Both the position numbers and the translations under genes were made by a program. The notes beneath the pieces are model-generated. The model saw nothing but the letters and a program-made list of their open reading frames with translations, was not told the DNA's origin and made no database searches. A stretch of DNA of 64,000 nucleotides from a virus. This document shows, piece by piece, positions 4,434 to 60,639 of the stretch (within the stretch, counting starts at the first letter, position 1; the number at the start of each line of letters is the position of its first letter). The DNA is taken from positions 1 to 64,000 of IMG/VR virus record IMGVR_UViG_3300045996_002966. One strand, 5' to 3'.

Positions 4434-5222
4434 ATGAAGCCCCGACGAGAACGGCAGCGGGATGACCGCGACTATGACACCAGCCAGCTCAATGAACGTT
4501 TCCATGCGGGGGTGATGGGCCGGGATTATTCTGCTCACTTCTTCCGTTGGTCCTTCGCCCGGCGTCTGATCCTTAAGGACGATGATGTGCTAGAGGTCGG
4601 CTGCGGTCAAGATAAACCTCTGTCCAAAATTCTCGTACGGGGTCCGGTTGCTCTGGTGAATACCTATACCGGCGTTGACCTTAATCCTCTGAAGCAGTCG
4701 GCGATCAAAAAGCTAACCTTCAAAGGGGAGTTCAACTTCGTAGAGCGGTACCAGGAGCTGCTCGATGAGCGTGATGGTGAGGGCTTCGATATCCTGATTC
4801 ACCTCGAGGTCATCGAGCACATGCACGTGGACCTTGGGAAGAAGATGCTCAAGGCCTGCTACCGGTGCCTGCGCCCCGGCGGAACGATGATCATGTCTAC
4901 GCCGGCCTATGACGGGAAGCGCCACGCGGCGAACCACATTCACGAGTACACCGTACCCGAGCTGCAGAAGTACGTGGAGGTAGCTGGCTTCGTGGTCGAG
5001 GATCGCTTCGGTACCTTTATGGACATCCGCCACATCGGGAAGGCCGCGCCCAGCATTCACGACGACGACACGAATGACCCGTCGGAAATCAACGAAGCTG
5101 TGACCATCGCGAATCGGTACCTGAGCAAATACTACGACACCCACGCGCTTTCGTGCTTCTTCGCGCCGCTCTACCCTGACCACGCTCGCAACAACCTTTG
5201 GCTCTGCAGGAGACCTGACTAA
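4434..5222 (+). CDS. Class I SAM-dependent methyltransferase
   Basis: This 262-residue protein has motif I LEVGCGQDKPLS (about residues 44-55), an acidic motif II in YTGVDLNPL (about 80-88), and FDILIHLEVIEHM (about 118-130), where the VIEHM box is typical of the Methyltransf_11/23 group. These are usually small-molecule, protein or glycan methyltransferases rather than DNA enzymes, and I cannot assign a substrate. Its SD (AGGGAG) is well placed. It ends one base before the start of the cytosine methyltransferase gene, so both are probably co-expressed. A role in modifying an unusual base or cell-surface molecule is possible. Confidence 0.8.
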   Translation: MKPRRERQRDDRDYDTSQLNERFHAGVMGRDYSAHFFRWSFARRLILKDDDVLEVGCGQDKPLSKILVRGPVALVNTYTGVDLNPLKQSAIKKLTFKGEFNFVERYQELLDERDGEGFDILIHLEVIEHMHVDLGKKMLKACYRCLRPGGTMIMSTPAYDGKRHAANHIHEYTVPELQKYVEVAGFVVEDRFGTFMDIRHIGKAAPSIHDDDTNDPSEINEAVTIANRYLSKYYDTHALSCFFAPLYPDHARNNLWLCRRPD

Positions 5223-5223
5223 A

Positions 5224-6570
5224 ATGGCTCGACAACTCACCGCCCTAGGAGGCGCGATCTTCGCTGGCCTGTTCACGGTCGGGATCAAGGAAGCTGGCTA
5301 TAGGGTGCTCGGGCACCTGGAGTTCGGCGACTACGGCGTCGCAACGGCGCGCAAGAACTTCCCCGACCTTGACATCCGCGTAGGTACGCACAACTGGAAT
5401 CCCGAACGGTTCACCGGCAAGGTGGATTTCATGTACACCAACCCGCCGTGCGCTGCCTGGTCGACCCTGGGCCACCCCACGCGGAAGTGGCATGAGCAGA
5501 CCGAGCGACTCTCCTGCGTGCAAGACCTGGTGCAGGCGGGTCTCATCGTGCAGCCGAAGGCTTGGTGCTGGGAGAGCGTGACGGGGGCGTGGGGGAAGGG
5601 TCGCGAATTCGTGCTCGAGCAGGCCCGGATCTGGAATCAGCACGGGTACCACGTGACGGTGCTGCTCCAAAACAACATGTACCTCGGCTGCCCGCAGTTC
5701 CGCAAGCGAATGTTCCTCATCGCTCACAAGCACCCGATTGTCTGGATGCCGTTCGTAGAATCACGGACTACGGGGCAAATCCTGAAGCAGATGCCGAAGC
5801 GAGGCCTGCCGAAGCCCCCGTTGGTACCGCCACCGCTCTCGCCGAGGTTCCTGGAGCTATGGCACCGCTCGGATGGCCACGGGCGCCTGCGGCGCGCCTA
5901 TGAGCAGATGAGCGAGGAGGAGCTAGCGAAGCACCCCGGCATCATCCCGTTCGCCGTCGTGCGGCGGCTCAACCCAGACAAGCCCCCACCGGTGTTCCTG
6001 CAGAGCGCGATGCGGCTCCACCCGACGGAGCCCCGTGAGTTCACCTACCACGAGTGGCTCGAGTTCACGGGGCTGCCGCACAACTGGCAGACGGCCTGCA
6101 CCAGCTTCAACTCCTTCTCCCTGGAGCTATCCCGCGCCGTCATGCCGCCGGTCGGCCGCTGGCTCGGGGAGTCGATCGCCGCCGGTCTCAAGAAGAAGCC
6201 CCTCGACATCAACAAAGGCGTGACCACCAGGGTGGTGAATTTCATGTTCGGGCCGGAGCGGGCCAGCGAGGAGGAGCTATGGCGCACGACGGAGTTCGCC
6301 GACCTCTCGACTCCTGTTTGGAGCCCCGCGACGCCCCCGCCGGAAGCGCCCAAGCGGGTGGCAAGGATAGGAGCCCCGCCCCGCGCGCCAAGCCCAGGGC
6401 GCCCCGGTATCGGGGCTCGAATCAGGGATCTGCTGCAAGACCCGCGAGGCTTTATCACCGAGCAGATTCTCACAACGATCCGGCAGGAGTTTCCCCAGTC
6501 CAAGGCCACCGCGGCCGACGTGTCCTGGAACCGCGGCAAACTGAAGAAGGAGCAGCAACGTGCAGCCTGA
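5224..6570 (+). CDS. DNA cytosine-C5 methyltransferase with C-terminal WYR-like domain
   Basis: A 448-residue Dcm/C5-MTase family protein. Motif I is GGAIFAGLFTVGIKEAG (about 9-25), the catalytic Pro-Cys loop is NPPCAAWSTLG (Cys76), the ENV-equivalent is CWESVTG (about 115-121), and motif VIII is CPQFRKRMFLIAH. The enzyme would transfer methyl from SAM to C5 of cytosine in a short target. The target-recognition region looks short. Beyond the MTase fold, the last 55 residues (IGARIRDLLQDP...DVSWNRGKLKKEQQ) match the WYR domain of the small proteins encoded at 1951-4344, with WYR changed to WNR. Overlap with the next gene is 11 bases. It could protect phage DNA from host restriction. Confidence 0.85.
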   Translation: MARQLTALGGAIFAGLFTVGIKEAGYRVLGHLEFGDYGVATARKNFPDLDIRVGTHNWNPERFTGKVDFMYTNPPCAAWSTLGHPTRKWHEQTERLSCVQDLVQAGLIVQPKAWCWESVTGAWGKGREFVLEQARIWNQHGYHVTVLLQNNMYLGCPQFRKRMFLIAHKHPIVWMPFVESRTTGQILKQMPKRGLPKPPLVPPPLSPRFLELWHRSDGHGRLRRAYEQMSEEELAKHPGIIPFAVVRRLNPDKPPPVFLQSAMRLHPTEPREFTYHEWLEFTGLPHNWQTACTSFNSFSLELSRAVMPPVGRWLGESIAAGLKKKPLDINKGVTTRVVNFMFGPERASEEELWRTTEFADLSTPVWSPATPPPEAPKRVARIGAPPRAPSPGRPGIGARIRDLLQDPRGFITEQILTTIRQEFPQSKATAADVSWNRGKLKKEQQRAA

Positions 6571-53362: not shown

Positions 53363-53641
53363 ATGAAAACCGACCTCGTTCATCTGAGTGCCACGTACGG
53401 AATCACCGGCACTACCGAAGAAGGCGACCTGAATCGCAAAGTCGCAGCCACCTTGATTCGTGACTTCCGTCGGACCCCCGGTGTAACCGTGACCCGCGTG
53501 CTGCGGACGTCGCACATCGTCATTCGCAGGCCGGATTTCGACTTCACCTGCCATCTCACCTGGGCGGAGCCGGAGGCGCGGGTGCAGGCCCGCTTGGCGG
53601 CGGGGCTGGCCGACCTGGAGTGGAGGCGTTCGGTCCTCTAG
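53363..53641 (+). CDS. Small protein (92 aa) in moron cassette
   Basis: CCCCAAGGAGCAGAGCC precedes ATG 53363. The product begins MKTDLVHLSATYGITGTTEE and has alpha/beta character with a C-terminal Arg-rich helix. Its last 86 bases are antisense to the 3' end of the portal gene (Pro/Ala-rich C-terminus), so two genes share sequence at a convergent junction. Confidence 0.6.
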   Translation: MKTDLVHLSATYGITGTTEEGDLNRKVAATLIRDFRRTPGVTVTRVLRTSHIVIRRPDFDFTCHLTWAEPEARVQARLAAGLADLEWRRSVL

Positions 53642-55049
53642 GCGGCGCTCCGGGCGCGGCAGGCAGCATGCCGAGGGGTGGGCCCTCGGCTTCCGCCGCT
53701 TCCAGCTCCTCGTCGACATCCACGTCGCCGGAGATGACCCCGCGGCGCTGCATCTCGTGAAGCGTGGTTTCCTTCGTGATCAGGCCCTGACCGCGTAGCG
53801 CGAGGACCATCTGCGCCGAGGCATCGGAAAGCGTGGCCACGCCGAAGTCTTTGAACAGCGCGAGGTGCCCGCCGTCCTTCGCCCCGAGGTACTCGGCCGT
53901 AAACTGCAGACATTCATCGATGGCGTCCTCCATGTTCTCGATGATCCGCTGAAGATCGCTCTTGTTGCCCTCCGCATCGGTGAAGGCCTCCGTCGCGCTG
54001 CGCTCGCCGGGCTTGACCACCAGCAGCTCGGCTCCCGTCTGGACCATCTGCTGCTCGAGGTCTTTGAGGCTCTCGCGCCCCGCCCCGATGGCCGCACCGC
54101 TGTGCTCCACGTACTTGGCATCGGCGCCCATCGGCAGGTTGAAGGTCAGGTTGGCGGCAACGGTTTTCTTCTTCGCGCCCGGAGCTTCCTCCTCCGCCCC
54201 GATGATCGCCAGGATTGGCACACGGGCGACGTGAAGGATGTTGTCTTGGTCCGATTGGCTCTGGTAGTGCTTGACGTTGAGGTGGGCTAGGTCCAGGAGC
54301 GGGGAGCGGCCCTGCATGAAGCCGGTCTCCTCGCCGAAAAAGGCCACAAACGGAATCTCCTGCTTGCCGCCGGTGCGGATCATCGGCCCCGCGTCAATCT
54401 GGACGTACTCGGTCGGCTTGTCCTTGACCTCCTCGAACAAGCGGAACCTGCCGGGCTCGAGGACGCGGACCCGCTTGACCCGGCGCACGCCGAATTCCCC
54501 GTCGGGTACCTCGGCCTCCTCCGCCAGGCGCAGCATCGTGAGGCGCTGCACCCCAGTCTCCGACTTCTCGCTGCGCCAGCCCAGGATCTGGTGATGCTTG
54601 ATCCACACCCAGTAGGGCCGGGCGCCGGCTGCCTGCTCGTCGGCCTTAGTGCGTAGCTCGGTGCCGCGGCGGGTGTAGTCGATGAAGACACCAGCCAGGC
54701 CAAAGGCCAGGGCCTCGCGACACACGCGCTGGGTGAAGACGTGGACACTCGAACCTTGTTGGTCGATGTTGGGCAGCAGCTTCTCGATCTCAGGTGGCAC
54801 CTTCTCGTCGGGTGTGATCTGCTTGGAGAAGGGCTTGCCGCTCATCACGTTGATGGTGCGACGAAACGCAGGGTAGAGGACCGCGCCGGCGAGCCGACTC
54901 GCGTAGTTCTCATCGACCTCGCCCGGCCAGCGAGGTAGCAGGGCCTGGGCCACCGCCCGCATACCCCTCGTACCGCCCATCAGGGGCTCGATCAAGTCCC
55001 AGTCCTGCTGCATGCCCAGGACCTCGGACGACTTCTCATGGACCTTCAT
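53556..55049 (-). CDS. Portal protein (DUF4055, 497 aa)
   Basis: The sequence from VLYPAFRRTINVMSGKPFSK through FTQRVCREALAFGLAGVFID to FVAFFGEETGFMQGRSPLLD fits the DUF4055 portal family. The C-terminal 50 residues are Pro/Ala-rich (PGAPPRGPNASTPGRPAPPP). It forms the dodecameric DNA channel at the capsid vertex. The C-terminus overlaps the antisense moron gene and may have been altered by the insertion. Gene order portal-MuF-scaffold-capsid is conserved. Confidence 0.88.
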   Translation of the reverse strand: MKVHEKSSEVLGMQQDWDLIEPLMGGTRGMRAVAQALLPRWPGEVDENYASRLAGAVLYPAFRRTINVMSGKPFSKQITPDEKVPPEIEKLLPNIDQQGSSVHVFTQRVCREALAFGLAGVFIDYTRRGTELRTKADEQAAGARPYWVWIKHHQILGWRSEKSETGVQRLTMLRLAEEAEVPDGEFGVRRVKRVRVLEPGRFRLFEEVKDKPTEYVQIDAGPMIRTGGKQEIPFVAFFGEETGFMQGRSPLLDLAHLNVKHYQSQSDQDNILHVARVPILAIIGAEEEAPGAKKKTVAANLTFNLPMGADAKYVEHSGAAIGAGRESLKDLEQQMVQTGAELLVVKPGERSATEAFTDAEGNKSDLQRIIENMEDAIDECLQFTAEYLGAKDGGHLALFKDFGVATLSDASAQMVLALRGQGLITKETTLHEMQRRGVISGDVDVDEELEAAEAEGPPLGMLPAAPGAPPRGPNASTPGRPAPPPSGPAPAPPAPPR

Positions 55050-55239
55050 TGCGGGGCTCCTGGTGGGTGTGCATCAAGGCGTCGACCAGGGTAGCTTCCA
55101 CGGCTTCCATGACCGCAATGCGCTCATCGGCCTCGTCCTGCGTCAGCTGGCCCGCGCGCACAGCGCAGGGGAGCACCCGACGACGGTGGCAGACCTCGGC
55201 GTGAACCGCGGCGATCTGGGTGGGATAGTCGATGATCAT
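55036..55239 (-). CDS. Small phage protein (67 aa)
   Basis: The product MIIDYPTQIAAVHAEVCHRR contains the common phage pattern ending QLTQDEADERIAVMEAVEAT (helical, 'EA.ERI..MEAI'), found next to portal or terminase genes in many phages. Its function is not established. It overlaps the portal start. Confidence 0.65.
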   Translation of the reverse strand: MIIDYPTQIAAVHAEVCHRRRVLPCAVRAGQLTQDEADERIAVMEAVEATLVDALMHTHQEPRNEGP

Positions 55240-55442
55240 TGGAACCTCTCAATTCTTACCTGACCGTAGACCCGCTCTTCCAAGGGCGCGGTCTGCGACT
55301 CATTGAGCTGTATGCGACCTTCGGCGTTGGTAACCAGCTGGACCACGTAGCCTTCCTCGTCATCTGCCTCGATGGCAAACTGCGCTTCGTGGCCGTCGAG
55401 GAAGACGTGGGCCCGGTCACCATTCGCTACCGATACTTTCAT
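55236..55442 (-). CDS. Small hypothetical protein (68 aa)
   Basis: ATG 55442 lies at the stop of the terminase gene (GTGATGA). The product is beta-rich and acidic (KVSVANGDRAHVFLDGHEAQ; YVVQLVTNAEGRIQLNES). It overlaps the next gene by 4 bases. Unknown function. Confidence 0.6.
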   Translation of the reverse strand: MKVSVANGDRAHVFLDGHEAQFAIEADDEEGYVVQLVTNAEGRIQLNESQTAPLEERVYGQVRIERFQ

Positions 55443-56713
55443 CACACCACCAGGGGCGTTGCTTCTGCGACGCGTTTAACGATCGGGTAGCGCTTGACGA
55501 GGAAGTAGCCACCAGCATCGTTGATGTGGTCCAGGCCTCCTTCCTTGTCCGGTTCCCCGTTCTTGTCGTAGGGCTGCTGCTCGAGGGCCGCGGTGTACTC
55601 AGGGCAACGATCGGTGTTGACCTTCAAGCGACGCTGGCCCTTCTGGTTGAGGATCATGCCGTTGACCGCGTTGACCCGATCCTTGATCCTGGGGTTAGCG
55701 TCGTTGACCCGGATGGTAAAGCCGGCCTGCCTCAGGATGCTGAGGTCGGACTCGCTGGCCTTCTTGGTGCTAGTGCTCTTGGCACTGGCATCGGGATAGA
55801 TGACCACTGGGTGGCCACGATCCACGTACCGCTCCTTGAGAATCTGGGCCATGGTCGGCGTGTCCCGAACCTTGGTCAGCTCCTCGAGGGCCATGGGCAG
55901 GTCGTTCCTCACGGCGAAGACCACAGCCGCCATCTTCATCACGTTGAAGTCCATCCCGATGTGGAGCGCTTCGTAGGGCAGGATCTCCTGGGAGGTGTGA
56001 TTCAGCACCCGGTCAAAGTCGGGGTAGACCGAGCCACTCGCCATGTTGACGAAGTCGCCCAGGATGTAGGCGCGGACCAGGTGCGGCGGATAGGTCTCGT
56101 AAAGGCCATCGATGTAGTCGTCGGGCAGGAACGGGTTGCTCTGCGTCGCCGCCTTGACCATCGTGTAGCTGGGGCTTGGGTTCTTGCCCCATTTGCTGTA
56201 CACGAACTTGAAGCCCTCGGGCGTGGAGTAGACCGAGACCCGGTTAACTGGGTTGACCATACCGAGGGGCTTCTGGCGGTTTCGCGCGATGATCTTCTGC
56301 CAGACCAGCGTGGCCTGCTCCTTCTTCAACGTGTCCAGCTCGTCGACGTGGGCGCGATAGCTCTCGTAACCCACGATCCTGGACGGGTTCTCCAAGGTCC
56401 GCAGCACGAAGTCACCGCACTGAGGACTCGACACGTAGATGATGTTTTCTTGCTTGTTGTGCTTGTACCGCAGTCCGTGGGCCTCGAGCATGGCGCTTAG
56501 CCGTGGCGTGAGGATCAGGCGAACGAGGTCATAGGTCGGTTCGTAGAGCGCGATGAGCGCGTATGGCGAGGCAAGCGCATCGCGGAAGGCACAATCAAGG
56601 AGGGTCTGGGTCTTACCGCTGCCGTAGCCGCCGAGGAACAACGGGTACTTGCCCTGGTCGGTGTAGAACCGAGCCTGGGGCTCGGTCATCTGGAGCGTGA
56701 TGGTGCGACTCAC
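55442..56713 (-). CDS. Terminase large subunit (423 aa)
   Basis: GTG 56713 overlaps the small-subunit stop. The ATPase domain has Walker A GGYGSGKT (28-35) and Walker B HVDELDT (about 122-128). The nuclease domain shows HIGMDFNVMKMAAVVFAVRN (Asp near 248), YPDASAK (about 320) and DHINDAGGYFLVKRYP. It translocates DNA into the prohead and cuts concatemers. It is complete and followed by the usual small genes before the portal. Confidence 0.93.
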   Translation of the reverse strand: MSRTITLQMTEPQARFYTDQGKYPLFLGGYGSGKTQTLLDCAFRDALASPYALIALYEPTYDLVRLILTPRLSAMLEAHGLRYKHNKQENIIYVSSPQCGDFVLRTLENPSRIVGYESYRAHVDELDTLKKEQATLVWQKIIARNRQKPLGMVNPVNRVSVYSTPEGFKFVYSKWGKNPSPSYTMVKAATQSNPFLPDDYIDGLYETYPPHLVRAYILGDFVNMASGSVYPDFDRVLNHTSQEILPYEALHIGMDFNVMKMAAVVFAVRNDLPMALEELTKVRDTPTMAQILKERYVDRGHPVVIYPDASAKSTSTKKASESDLSILRQAGFTIRVNDANPRIKDRVNAVNGMILNQKGQRRLKVNTDRCPEYTAALEQQPYDKNGEPDKEGGLDHINDAGGYFLVKRYPIVKRVAEATPLVV

Positions 56714-57219
56714 GCGTCGTCTGCCTCGAGGTCGTCAACCGGGTTCAAACTCTCGACCTTGCCGCCCACCACCTCGACCACGATCCTGCCGATCGGCGGG
56801 GTGTCGTCCGGGTTTAGGCCCTTCGCGCTGCGGTCCAGGTCGTGCTGCAGCTTGGTCATGCTCTCGAGGCGTGCAACCAGACGATCGAACTGGTTGTGAA
56901 AGTCGGCACGACGAAACTTCTTCTTGCGCAAGAGGTTGCCCACCTGCTTCCCGGTCTTGGTGGTGTAGACCTCCTCAACGATCTCCTCCAGCTCCTGCGT
57001 GGTCATATCCCCGTCGGTCACCATCTGGCGAGCTTCGGCCACGAGCATGCGCCTGAGGCGAATGCGAATGATTTCGATCTCAGATGAGAGGTCGTTCCAG
57101 AGGTGCTGCTCGGCGAAGGCAACCTCCTCCTTCGTGAAGAGGTTGGACCAGACCGAGGTGCGGAAGTTGTTGCGCGTGCCCTTCGGCGGCCCGCCATTTT
57201 CAGGAAGCTCTCGAGCCAT
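56710..57219 (-). CDS. Terminase small subunit (169 aa)
   Basis: I chose ATG 57219 (MARELPENGGPPKGTRNNFR...); an upstream TTG at 57252 extends it by 11 residues. Neither has a clear SD. The protein is helical, with a basic N-terminus and acidic C-terminus, and lies directly upstream of the large subunit with a 4-base overlap, the position of the small subunit. It would recognise the packaging site. Family assignment comes from context and composition. Confidence 0.7.
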   Translation of the reverse strand: MARELPENGGPPKGTRNNFRTSVWSNLFTKEEVAFAEQHLWNDLSSEIEIIRIRLRRMLVAEARQMVTDGDMTTQELEEIVEEVYTTKTGKQVGNLLRKKKFRRADFHNQFDRLVARLESMTKLQHDLDRSAKGLNPDDTPPIGRIVVEVVGGKVESLNPVDDLEADDA

Positions 57220-57629
57220 GGGAATTTGCACTGCGAAATTAGGGATTGCCAAATTCTACCATGGAACGAGATTCACTTGCGTTCAACTGTGGGTGCAGCA
57301 CAAAGAACTTCGTGCGAAGGGTGCGCAATCAACACGGGCACCAATGGGCGGTGAACTCGAGTGCACGTAGCCGCGAAGGGCTAAGCACAAGGCTGTTTCA
57401 GATTTTACTTTGTTTCAGATTCCTATATTTACTATAGGGGAAAAAGTAGTAGAAGGTATAAATATATAAGGGTTTATAACAGTTTATATATATAAGGAGG
57501 TAGGGATCTCTGTACCAGAGTAGATTCTGAAACACGGCTTAAGTCCTTGAATTCATTAAAAAAATTCTTTGACCTACCAACTTCTATCTGCTTCTGAATC
57601 TGAAAATGAGCCGATTTTGTGTCGTTGAT

Positions 57630-57662
57630 TCACCAATAAATCACCAATAAATCACCAATATT
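57630..57662 (+). repeat. Three 11-bp iterons
   Basis: TCACCAATAAA (57630-57640), TCACCAATAAA (57641-57651) and TCACCAATATT (57652-57662) lie in direct tandem with an 11-bp period, one helical turn apart, so a protein could bind all on one DNA face. Confidence 0.8.
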
Positions 57663-57742
57663 TGGCCTGTTTTTGCCTATTTTTTAGGCAATTTTCGCCC
57701 CATTTCGGCCTTTTTGGTGCCAAATATTGGTGATTTATTGGT
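57643..57742. repeat. 23-bp perfect inverted repeat around a 54-base centre
   Basis: Left arm 57643-57665 (starts ACCAATAAATC, ends CAATATTTGG) and right arm 57720-57742 (starts CCAAATATTGG, ends TTTATTGGT) are exact reverse complements. The centre holds a smaller hairpin GCCTA/TAGGC (57675-57679 with 57685-57689). A cruciform or a symmetric initiator binding site is expected. Confidence 0.85.
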
Positions 57743-57821
57743 CCTTTTCGGCCCCGTTCCGAGTTCATTGTGAAGCCTGTTTCACTCATTACACGATTTC
57801 AAGGCCCTCTGAAGTTTGCTA

Positions 57822-57849
57822 TTGGACAGCCCTGGAAATTAAGTATTAA
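57822..57849 (+). promoter_or_regulatory. Possible promoter for the replication genes
   Basis: TTGGAC (57822-57827), 16 bases, TATTAA (57844-57849), about 45 bases before the gene at 57894. It differs from the TTTACA family and is only a moderate match to a sigma-70 promoter. Confidence 0.35.
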
Positions 57850-57893
57850 TATCCTTTTCCCTGATTCCGAATAACTGAATAAGAGACGAGGCG

Positions 57894-58388
57894 ATGACGA
57901 CAAAGGCTAAGGTAATTCCCCTAAAGCCACCGAGCGCGCAGTTCGAAGACCTAAGCGAGGAGGACGCCAACGAGCTGATCCTCGGGCTCTACGTAATCTA
58001 TAAGACCATCGACTCGAGGCGCAAGGCTCTCGAGCTGGCCAGATCCTGGTTCGCGGGGCAAGGCGTAAGGCTGGTACGCAACAGCACGCTGCCCAACGCG
58101 ATTCAGGAAACCGTGCAGCACCTGCGCTACCAGAAGAAGAAGGGTCAGTACGTGGTACGCTGGCGAAGCGGCGGCTACCAGGTCTTCAACACGCTGGCCG
58201 AGGTCGCCGAGGCTTTGCACCTCGGGCTCTATCAGCTGCGCAACGACTTCGTCGGTCAGACGAAGATCGACCTCGCCGGTATCACCGACGAGCACGGAAA
58301 CCCTGAGATAGTTACCCTCGAGCTGGTTCCATTTGACCAACTCACCGAACACCTGCGCCTGTTGGAATTAGAAGACGCGCAGGGTTGA
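57894..58388 (+). CDS. Hypothetical protein beside the origin (164 aa)
   Basis: The product starts MTTKAKVIPLKPPSAQFEDL and has a helical and basic central region (SRRKALELARSWFAGQGVRL; YQKKKGQYVVRWRSGGYQVF). The first gene to the right of the origin region, before the primase-helicase gene, is often an initiator or origin-binding protein. I see no helix-turn-helix I can assert. Its origin role is inferred from position. Confidence 0.6.
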   Translation: MTTKAKVIPLKPPSAQFEDLSEEDANELILGLYVIYKTIDSRRKALELARSWFAGQGVRLVRNSTLPNAIQETVQHLRYQKKKGQYVVRWRSGGYQVFNTLAEVAEALHLGLYQLRNDFVGQTKIDLAGITDEHGNPEIVTLELVPFDQLTEHLRLLELEDAQG

Positions 58389-58408: not shown

Positions 58409-58437
58409 TGGTTATGCCGTAAGGGAGGTTGGAAAAA

Positions 58438-60639
58438 TTGGTTAAGAAGTCCAACGTGAGCCAGATCGACGATTACAAGGTGGGGAGGTTAGCAGAGGAA
58501 AAGCTTGATTCTTCCGGTCTCGACCTAGCCGATGCGAAGCAGCTACACATCGACATTCTCTCCTCCTCCCAAGCGAGTCCGCTGCTGCCCGAGGCGCTAC
58601 GCGAGAAGAACAAGCGGGGCGTTCTCAAGTTCACCTACCACACGATCGAGGGTAAGCCCCTCATCGACAAGGCCACGAAGGCTCCCTACTACCGGGTTCG
58701 CCTGCTGGGCGATGATGATGCGGCTGCCGCCCCAGCCGTCCCACAGGGCGCCTTCGGTTCGGTTCCCATCGAGACCAAGAAGCGGCGCCCGGCGCGCTAC
58801 TTCCAGCCCGCCAAGAGCCTGCCGCATCCTTACTTCCCCACCAACCTCACCGAGCTGATCTACCTCGTCGATGGCGAGTGGCAGCAGCGCGACGTCACCT
58901 GGTCCGACCTTGCCCAGGATCCCGACCTGCCCGTCATCCTCACCGAGGGCGAGCTGAAGGCGGCGAAGGCCTGCGCGATGGGGTACGCAACGATCGGGCT
59001 GGGAGGCGTGCACGCCTGGAAGTCGGGCCCGCACGGGATTCCGTTTCTGCCCGAGCTGGAGGATTTCCTCTGGCATTCACGCCGCGTCTACATCTGCTTC
59101 GACTCCGACGTGATGACCAAGCCCGCGGTGGCGGAGGCCCTGGAACAACTCTCGGGTGAGCTGGTCGATCGCGGCGCGGACGTCTTCATCGTGCTACTGC
59201 CTCCCATCTACGCCGAGGGCGCGGAGGATAAGAAGCAAGCGCCGAAGACGGGGCTCGATGACTTCTTCGTTCACGTGCCGGGTGCGGAGGAGCAGTTCCG
59301 CTACCTGCTGCAGGAAGCTCAGCACTTCGGCCTCGCGCGCCCGCTGTTCGAGCTCAACCACAAGTATGTCTACGTCGCCGACAAGCACTTCATCCTCAAC
59401 CTGAAGAACCTCTCCATCGCCAGCCCCGCACAGTTTCGCGACACCGAGGGCAACGTGAGCGTGGTGATCCCGTCGGTCAAGCAGGGCAAGGTCAGCTATG
59501 AGAAGCAGGCGGCCCCGGCCCAGTGGCTGCGCTGGCCCTTGCGAGGCTCGGTCGAGGGGCTGGTCTATCGGCCCTGCCCGCCCGGCTCCGAGCTGCGCTT
59601 CGTCGAGGGCAGGTACAACACCTGGCGGGGCTACGGCTGCGAGCCCAAGCCGGGCGACGTGGGTCCGTTCCTGAAGCTCATCGACCACATCTTCACCGAC
59701 GCCGACCCCGGCGCGAAGGAGTGGTTTCTACGCTGGCTGGCCTACCCGCTGCAGAAGCCCTCCAAGATGCTGACCGCCGCGGTGCTCTGGGGCATCGAGC
59801 AGGGTACGGGGAAATCCGTGATTGGCAACCTGATGGGGCAAATCTACGGGGAGAACTTCTCGGCCATCAACCAGTCGCAGCTCCACTCAACCTTCAACCC
59901 CTGGGCCCACAACAAGCAGTTCATCATGGGCGAGGAGATTACCGGGGCCGGAGATAAGCGCTCTGACGCCAACGTGCTGAAGGATCTGATTAGCGGCAAG
60001 CGGGTGTGGGTCAACCAGAAGAATGTCTCGCAGTATCAGATCGACAATTATATCAACTTCCTCTTCACCTCTAACCACCCCGACGCCTTCTACCTCGAGG
60101 ACAAGGACCGGCGCTATTTCATCCACCACGTGACCGTCGGCCCACTGCCGGCTTCGTTCTACCAGGGTGAGCTGCGCAAGTGGGAGGACGCGGGCGGCGT
60201 GTCTCACCTGTTCGACTACCTGCTGCGCCTGGACCTGAAGGGCATGCACCACGACGATCGGGCCCTGGAGACCGAGGCGAAGCGGCAGATGATCGAGGAC
60301 GTGCGTAGTGAGCTCTCCCTGTGGGTCAGCGAGCTGCGGAACAACCCGGATTCGGTCCTGAGGCTGGGCGAGGTGATCCACCCGGCCGAGCTGTTCACGA
60401 GCGCGCAGCTGCTGTCCTTCTACCAGACGCAGCACGACCTGACGGGGACGACGACCAACGCAATGGGGCGCGAGTTGAAGCGCGCCGGCTTTACGCAGGT
60501 GCTAAGGGGCTCACCGATCCGAACCCAGGACGGGCTGCAGAATCGCTACTTCGTGATCCGTAATCCCGAGAGGTGGGTAAAGGCGACGATGGGACAAATC
60601 ACCTCTCACCTGAATCAATTCGTCAGCCGTAAAAAGTAG
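58438..60639 (+). CDS. Bifunctional primase / SF3 helicase (DUF3854 + DUF5906 type)
   Basis: AGGGAGG (58422-58428) fits the TTG at 58438, not the TTG at 58429; no ATG lies nearby. The protein (733 aa) begins with an N-terminal part whose TOPRIM-like region contains LTEGELKAAKACAMGYATIG and YICFDSD (about residues 165-235). It ends with an SF3-type helicase core: Walker A EQGTGKSVIGN (about 451-461), FIMGEEITGAGDKRSDANVL, and LFTSNHPDAF (sensor). This is the replicative primase/helicase of the phage, and its location next to the candidate origin fits. TTG starts often mean restrained translation. Confidence 0.85.
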   Translation: MVKKSNVSQIDDYKVGRLAEEKLDSSGLDLADAKQLHIDILSSSQASPLLPEALREKNKRGVLKFTYHTIEGKPLIDKATKAPYYRVRLLGDDDAAAAPAVPQGAFGSVPIETKKRRPARYFQPAKSLPHPYFPTNLTELIYLVDGEWQQRDVTWSDLAQDPDLPVILTEGELKAAKACAMGYATIGLGGVHAWKSGPHGIPFLPELEDFLWHSRRVYICFDSDVMTKPAVAEALEQLSGELVDRGADVFIVLLPPIYAEGAEDKKQAPKTGLDDFFVHVPGAEEQFRYLLQEAQHFGLARPLFELNHKYVYVADKHFILNLKNLSIASPAQFRDTEGNVSVVIPSVKQGKVSYEKQAAPAQWLRWPLRGSVEGLVYRPCPPGSELRFVEGRYNTWRGYGCEPKPGDVGPFLKLIDHIFTDADPGAKEWFLRWLAYPLQKPSKMLTAAVLWGIEQGTGKSVIGNLMGQIYGENFSAINQSQLHSTFNPWAHNKQFIMGEEITGAGDKRSDANVLKDLISGKRVWVNQKNVSQYQIDNYINFLFTSNHPDAFYLEDKDRRYFIHHVTVGPLPASFYQGELRKWEDAGGVSHLFDYLLRLDLKGMHHDDRALETEAKRQMIEDVRSELSLWVSELRNNPDSVLRLGEVIHPAELFTSAQLLSFYQTQHDLTGTTTNAMGRELKRAGFTQVLRGSPIRTQDGLQNRYFVIRNPERWVKATMGQITSHLNQFVSRKK

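Follow-up and report, generated by a model that had tools for sequence, protein, structure and literature searches.

A candidate phage replication origin with inward-facing iterons around an AT-rich core, and its counterparts beside related primase-helicase genes

Introduction

To our knowledge, the replication origins of most phages are unknown, and the locus described here raises the question of whether the gap between two divergent gene units of a virus is the place where its DNA replication begins. The locus lies in a 71,959-bp virus record from IMG/VR, part of which, a stretch of 64,000 nucleotides (hereafter, the window), was analyzed. Leftward genes on the minus strand, including those for the portal protein and the large and small terminase subunits, occupy positions 53556-57252, and the candidate-origin stretch is the gap between this packaging unit and the rightward replication unit. 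Its divergent neighbor on the left is the gene for the terminase small subunit (56710-57252, minus strand; phrog_1889, E 4e-8), beyond which lies that for the large subunit (55442-56713, minus strand). The replication unit opens on the plus strand with the gene for a 164-aa protein of unassigned function (57894-58388), followed by that for a 736-aa primase-helicase (58429-60639; DUF3854 and DUF5906) that combines a DnaG-type primase core with an SF3 helicase.

The original prediction described an AT-rich candidate origin next to the primase-helicase gene. Base composition agrees with it—GC content falls to its lowest value here, both within the window (0.36 over 450 bp vs. 0.60 overall) and within the whole record (0.30 over 150 bp at position 57417, the next lowest value being 0.413)—but the 57894 gene separates the stretch from the primase-helicase gene. 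As a separate observation on the record itself, bases 1-127 recur at positions 70982-71108, near but not at the record end, possibly as an imperfect assembly end overlap or as a terminal repeat.

Repeat architecture of the intergenic stretch

The stretch holds two repeat systems. In system A, two direct copies of TGTTTCAGATT lie on the plus strand, A1 (57394-57404), which faces the AT-rich core, and A2 (57411-57421). The core itself spans 102 bp (57422-57523, 69% AT) and is a candidate DNA-unwinding element; it contains two TATA repeats (57456-57471 and 57482-57497) and the sequence TATATATAA at 57487. An inverted copy on the minus strand, A3 (ATTCTGAAACA, 57524-57534), closes the core, with TGTTTCAGA inverted at 57526, and a further partial inverted copy, GAATCTGAAA, is located at 57596-57605 (minus strand). 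The direct repeats and the core sequence had been predicted, and the inverted copy at 57526 is added here.

System B begins farther to the right with three 11-bp iterons of the form TCACCAATA(AA/TT) on the plus strand (57630-57662; starts at 57630, 57641 and 57652, hence an 11-bp spacing). The first two copies have the sequence TCACCAATAAA and the third has TCACCAATATT; TCACCAATA is also present in inverted orientation, once in full at 57725 (57725-57733) and once in part at 57736. The joined 19-mer of these iterons has a single site in the 71,959-bp record. The iterons merge into a perfect dyad with a left arm at 57643-57666 (plus strand) and a right arm at 57719-57742 (minus strand), the latter containing the inverted iteron, and within the loop sits a small hairpin (57673-57691; 7-bp stem, 5-nt loop). 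The iterons and the hairpin match the original prediction, which was also right about a perfect inverted repeat, but its arms measure 24 bp around 52 bases and not 23 bp around 54.

Folded as single-stranded DNA, the dyad gave a z-score of -7.2, with none of 200 shuffles as good; system A was moderate and weaker (z -2.6, five of 200 shuffles equally good). Across the whole window there are 21 perfect 12-mer inverted seeds with spacers no longer than 300; 20 of them fall here, most of these overlapping and deriving from the one dyad, and the top 7-mer count of four was matched by none of 40 shuffles. An Rfam scan returned nothing near the gathering score, and its matches to the dyad were at chance level. 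The TCACCAATA dyad was seen neither in those islands of relatives that were inspected nor in an inverted-repeat scan of 57 loci. It could belong to the same origin, as a second array or an extrudable stem-loop, or else serve as an operator for the replication operon.

Structural features of the primase-helicase

The structural model of the primase-helicase, obtained with an alignment of 43 sequences (the window protein and 42 relatives), had a pLDDT of 89.9, and DUF3854 and DUF5906 were present in all 43 aligned members. Model residues 12-368 correspond to a DnaG-type primase core, matching DnaG polymerase-domain structures with Z up to 13.8, and the SF3 helicase extends from about residue 300 to residues 711-713 in the alignment with NrS-1 structures. 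Structure matches comprised the C-terminal region of NrS-1 (Z 26), the SaPI5 primase-helicase (Z 17.6) and papillomavirus E1 (Z 13), and the helicase part additionally matched D5/E5 and AAV Rep structures. The C-terminus of the model contains predicted helices (658-669 and 676-685) and short strands, which do no more than hint at a winged helix. According to a published report (PMC7581432), initiators of this kind recognize the iterons of SaPIs and also, in vitro, those of SCCmec elements, and the D5-type helicase Cch2 binds its own iterons through its C-terminal domain. In keeping with its predicted fold, the primase-helicase is most likely the initiator and the binder of the iterons.

AT-rich islands upstream of related primase genes

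Three named phages have well-covered relatives of the primase-helicase—Stenotrophomonas phage AXL3, Pseudoxanthomonas phage PW916 and ctUtU524, each about 41% identical—and all three show the order terminase, AT-rich gap, small ORF and primase. A profile of these three and the window primase yielded 113 IMG/VR relatives, the best 80 of which were used; the exclusion of L060, where the match starts at the contig edge, left 79 usable loci. An island was defined as a 150-bp segment with GC below 0.42 located no more than 1.4 kb upstream of the primase, and 64 of these 79 relatives (from the best 80 of 113) had one, with 15 failing. Adding the three named phages and the window, which were exempt from the definition, gave 68 islands, reduced by near-duplicate removal to 59 (55 IMG/VR loci, the three named phages and the window). 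Among loci from genome contigs, ten of 80 were inspected (L091-L100) and five were below 0.42 GC (L091, L094, L095, L099 and L100); in L096, which belongs to an Anaeromyxobacter chromosome, the GC content was far above this value.

Two further features of these loci deserve mention in their own right. In the gap between terS and the primase of ctUtU524 (L004), an annotated minus-strand gene (5274-5861) overlaps a plus-strand ORF (5298-5777) in the position of the small protein, and the annotated gene may have been assigned to the wrong strand. Moreover, a second recurrent word, AAGTTGTTG, is found in 15 of the 59 islands against 0.2 expected; it is located in the interval from terS to the iterons, with a further copy toward the primase in some loci (L009, L018, L021, L024, L041 and others).

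A recurrent inward-facing motif within the islands

The word CTACAG was first spotted by eye and by counting and was afterwards ranked against all 6-mers. It came first for inward-facing pairs, which it forms in 17 of 59 islands (shuffles: mean 0.12, maximum 2 in 50 sets), with a single outward pair and none in the coding control. The longer form CTACAGA is arranged around the AT-rich center, with 24 copies on the plus strand and none opposite in the bin from -50 to 0, and 20 on the minus strand and one opposite in the bin from +50 to 100, against a background of 0.14 per bin (59 loci, both strands). Inward CTACAG pairs are likewise concentrated in the islands, with 34 inside vs. 3 outside (579,358 bp from 58 loci, window excluded), and none was found in the fetched loci of 12 of the 15 island-less relatives (L012, which is cut by the contig end, L045, L049, L051, L057, L062, L069, L073, L075, L077, L083 and L086). 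Farther out, GCTACA copies in the bin from -100 to -50 number 14 on the plus and 28 on the minus strand, so that not all face inward, and six CTACAGA copies lie on the plus strand at 150-200.

Other 6-mers attained inward pairs in up to 12 of 59 loci of the coding control by way of shared coding sequence, and relatedness alone can therefore raise inward-pair counts. A simple count detected no iteron excess in 34 of 59 islands, and an exact 8-mer test found inward and direct pairs to be equally common, each occurring in 36 of 59 islands against 11.9 and 15.3, respectively, in shuffles. A weight matrix derived from the CTACAG arms gave 13 of the remaining 42 islands higher scores than any of 60 permuted matrices did, leaving 29 of 59 islands unclaimed by the motif. 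Island words were also compared with regions of the primase for co-variation; the largest partial correlations, 0.13 (residues 421-490) and 0.12 (661-730), were unconvincing and singled out no domain. The degenerate pattern TGNNNCAGA, considered as a common motif, was joint second-ranked with 5 of 59 islands and was rejected as only suggestive.

How does the window relate to these islands? Its inward spacing of 108 falls within the range of the relatives' CTACAG pairs (64-125, median 95), but its half-sites resemble the CTACAG motif at p = 0.05 only, as do those of L004; the window thus fits the CTACAG-island pattern by layout, position and spacing, and by sequence only marginally. In L004 (ctUtU524), TGTTTC occurs at 5117, 5130 and 5255 in the order +, +, -, as in the window. 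Half-sites lying between the window form and the CTACAG form were present in L003 and L005 (TGTTACAGA / TCTGCAACA) and, on the right, in L030 (TCTGCTACA). The half-sites of AXL3 and PW916 are TGTTACAGA / TCTGCAACA, and no TCACCAATA dyad was seen in the stretches of these two phages that were inspected. Apart from this, the inward iterons were observed to lie within perfect inverted repeats in two loci, with arms of 24 bp around 95 bases in L010 and of 33 bp around 76 bases in L015.

Repeats beside DUF5906 replication genes of plasmids

Plasmid records were matched by both the window primase and the Roseomonas protein (46 records each), and eight plasmids, chosen as small or environmental, were inspected in whole or in part. 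DUF5906 scored above the Pfam cut-off in seven of the eight replication proteins; the Salinibacter protein had no DUF5906 match and only a sub-cut-off TOPRIM match, and the Pleomorphomonas protein is annotated in two pieces. Two of the plasmid proteins were clear homologues of the phage profile (hhalign probabilities of 99.7 and 99.0).

An inverted repeat of at least 12 bp was found no more than 900 bp 3' of the gene in five of the seven DUF5906 plasmids, or in six of eight with Salinibacter included: 18 bp around 113 in Methylobacterium, 17 around 55 in Rhizobium, 15 around 132 in Citrobacter, 24 around 105 in Roseomonas, 14 around 193 or 24 in Komagataeibacter and 13 around 195 in Salinibacter. 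Moellerella and Pleomorphomonas lack such a repeat in the 900 bp on the 3' side, and none of the eight plasmids has one in the 900 bp on the 5' side. In all six plasmids, the longest 3' repeat exceeds the longest found elsewhere in the stretch inspected, where each plasmid has zero to four such repeats of up to 14 bp—which makes the shorter 3' repeats weak. Additionally, Roseomonas, Komagataeibacter, Salinibacter and Citrobacter each have eight or nine copies of one 8-mer on the 3' side. In the Roseomonas plasmid (L173, 3326-3600), nine copies of ACCCTGGA, some direct and some inverted, lie 3' of the DUF5906 gene; among them is a perfect dyad with 20-bp arms and a 33-nt loop. The plasmid repeats lie 3' of the gene, whereas the phage islands lie 5' of the primase; moreover, the criterion was fixed after the first plasmids had been inspected, and we therefore treat the plasmid result as supporting rather than confirmatory.

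Comparison with known replication systems

By layout, the stretch can be likened to the origins of the PICI/SaPI elements, in which, as described in PMC6092414, two sets of iterons flank an AT-rich region and pri-rep-ori function has been tested. The window shares the inward iterons around an AT-rich core, with a minimal set of two plus one. It differs in that the PICI/SaPI origin lies immediately 3' of rep, whereas the window stretch is located on the 5' side of the primase-helicase gene and separated from it by one gene, and no inverted repeat of at least 15 bp was found within 700 bp 3' of the primase-helicase gene; unlike these elements, the window phage has its own terminase and portal genes.

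The helicase of the alpha protein of satellite P4 belongs to SF3. In alpha, it is joined to a TOPRIM-type primase, as described in PMC4234260, and the window protein resembles it in combining a TOPRIM/DnaG-type primase core with an SF3 helicase; the score of the window protein against the P4-family primase model TIGR01613 (NCBIfam) was, however, 18.1 bits, far below the cut-off of 108.7. The same source describes the origin of the archaeal plasmid pRN1 as a stem-loop of about 100 nt (21-nt stem, 58-nt loop) that is required for replication and located beside the primase-helicase gene (PMC4234260). These dimensions are near those of the window dyad (24-bp stem, 52-nt loop, 100 nt in total, 57643-57742), and in both replicons a small gene precedes the primase-helicase gene. 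The pRN1 stem-loop, in contrast, lies 3' of the gene, lacks iterons and accompanies an archaeo-eukaryotic-type primase, while the window dyad lies 5', with iterons and a DnaG-type primase. The closest solved helicase region is that of the NrS-1 primase-polymerase (Z 26 over 370 residues, 18% identity), whose N-terminal primase comes from another superfamily and whose proposed start sites (PMC7102993, PMC8718748) are 8-nt sequences and not flanking iterons. In the AXL3 paper, the terms "origin of replication" and "intergenic" do not occur, and searches of a subset of PubMed Central returned no account of this origin for the phages considered here.

Packaging, operator and initiator alternatives

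The same position invites a different explanation, namely a packaging initiation site (cos/pac) whose repeats are bound by the small terminase subunit while the large subunit cuts nearby. The stretch lies immediately upstream of terS, and a terminase subunit is the left neighbor in 52 of 59 island loci (in L009 and L022, the small subunit only); the other seven comprise L010, L017 and L053, with short upstream sequence, L035 and L056, with no terminase match, and L080 and L081, outside the scan. The island-less L045, L049, L057 and L062 also have no terminase match nearby, and the motif type tracks one small-terminase cluster, 22 of whose 26 members carry the CTACAG form. The large terminases, on the other hand, fall into several clusters, and the CTACAG form is common to loci in four of them that are unlinked at E 1e-10; it also occurs in L015, L066 and L071, whose terS are unlinked at E 1e-3. 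Xanthomonas phage Kintu, which has the closest large terminase among the matches listed (61%), has no inward CTACAG or TGTTTC pair. In trees of 49 loci, 24 of them labeled, the CTACAG label—assigned to 29 loci, of which 17 have exact pairs and 12 come from the 13 held-out islands picked by the matrix, with L005 left unlabeled—changes 7 times on the primase tree and 8 times on each of the terS and terL trees, which were quick trees with several long branches. This comparison does not discriminate and, taken with the terS cluster, means that gene neighborhood alone does not separate an origin from a packaging site. An easily melted core of 100 bp is not expected of a packaging site, and one of about that length is present here. 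The main reason for preferring an origin is the set of inverted repeats beside the replication gene of plasmids, in whose stretches no terminase is annotated, Salinibacter excepted, the gene tables being incomplete. On balance, we consider a packaging site unlikely.

A control region between two divergent transcription units, with the repeats acting as operators and the 57894 protein perhaps repressing its own operon, has a model in the orf56 repressor of plasmid pRN1, as reported in PMC4234260. Divergent genes do flank the stretch, a weak sigma-70-like promoter candidate (57823-57852, plus strand) follows the dyad and precedes the 57894 gene, and the TCACCAATA dyad and the 57894 protein have both been seen in this phage only. 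The promoter scan, however, was no better than chance (one found vs. 1.4 expected), and the recurring element is kept in 11 relatives (L021, L026, L036, L037, L039, L040, L044, L048, L056, L059 and L063) for which a filtered listing contained no plus-strand ORF of at least 80 aa between island and primase; since several of these are close relatives of each other, they amount to fewer than 11 independent cases. As an account of the whole stretch we therefore find a control region quite improbable, and an operator function may hold for the TCACCAATA dyad alone. The 11 relatives bear equally on the original prediction that the 57894 protein is the initiator of the same origin, which has in its favor that the protein is small, adjoins the repeats and is encoded by the first gene of the unit. 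No family was found for it, its single match being far under the cut-off; no relative emerged from an IMG/VR search with single window proteins, and a comparison with the 298 small ORFs of the locus set returned only the self-match. Its fold was not predictable (pLDDT 45). The sequences compared show no conserved small protein ahead of the primase, and with the primase-helicase resembling known initiators, we consider 57894 highly improbable as the initiator.

Proposed mechanism and implications

From the recurrence in phages, the linking half-sites, the lowest GC, the plasmid repeats, the predicted fold and the PICI parallels, we conclude that the stretch is probably the replication origin of this phage. 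The original prediction of an origin with direct and inverted initiator sites thus gains support from the comparison across phages and plasmids, except that the recurring part is the TGTTTCAGATT/AT-rich element and not the TCACCAATA dyad. As far as sequence comparison can tell, repeat-flanked stretches of this sort accompany replication genes of this type in many phages and some plasmids. We infer that the primase-helicase would bind the inward iterons, two TGTTTCAGATT copies on the left and one on the right, and assemble on both sides of the core. It would then melt the AT-rich core of about 100 bp, load as a helicase and prime, with forks leaving in both directions.

A broader proposal, which we advance tentatively and with slightly more doubt than conviction, is that these loci represent an undescribed and widespread class of phage origins, in which fusions of a DnaG-type primase and an SF3 helicase would start replication at inward iterons around a melting core, and that related proteins drive plasmids and satellites from equivalent origins. 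The replicons of this family in phages, satellites and plasmids would then all go back to a common ancestor, the layout being kept while the iteron sequence drifted. The organization of inward iterons around an AT core had been called unique to PICIs; if the proposal is true, the perfect iteron dyad with its pRN1-like loop would be a second element of the origin of the window phage. The corresponding sequence rule—inward iterons and an AT-rich core beside a DUF3854-DUF5906 primase-helicase gene—would predict origins in dozens of uncultured phages, and it is open to testing in AXL3 and PW916, two named phages whose host is also named.
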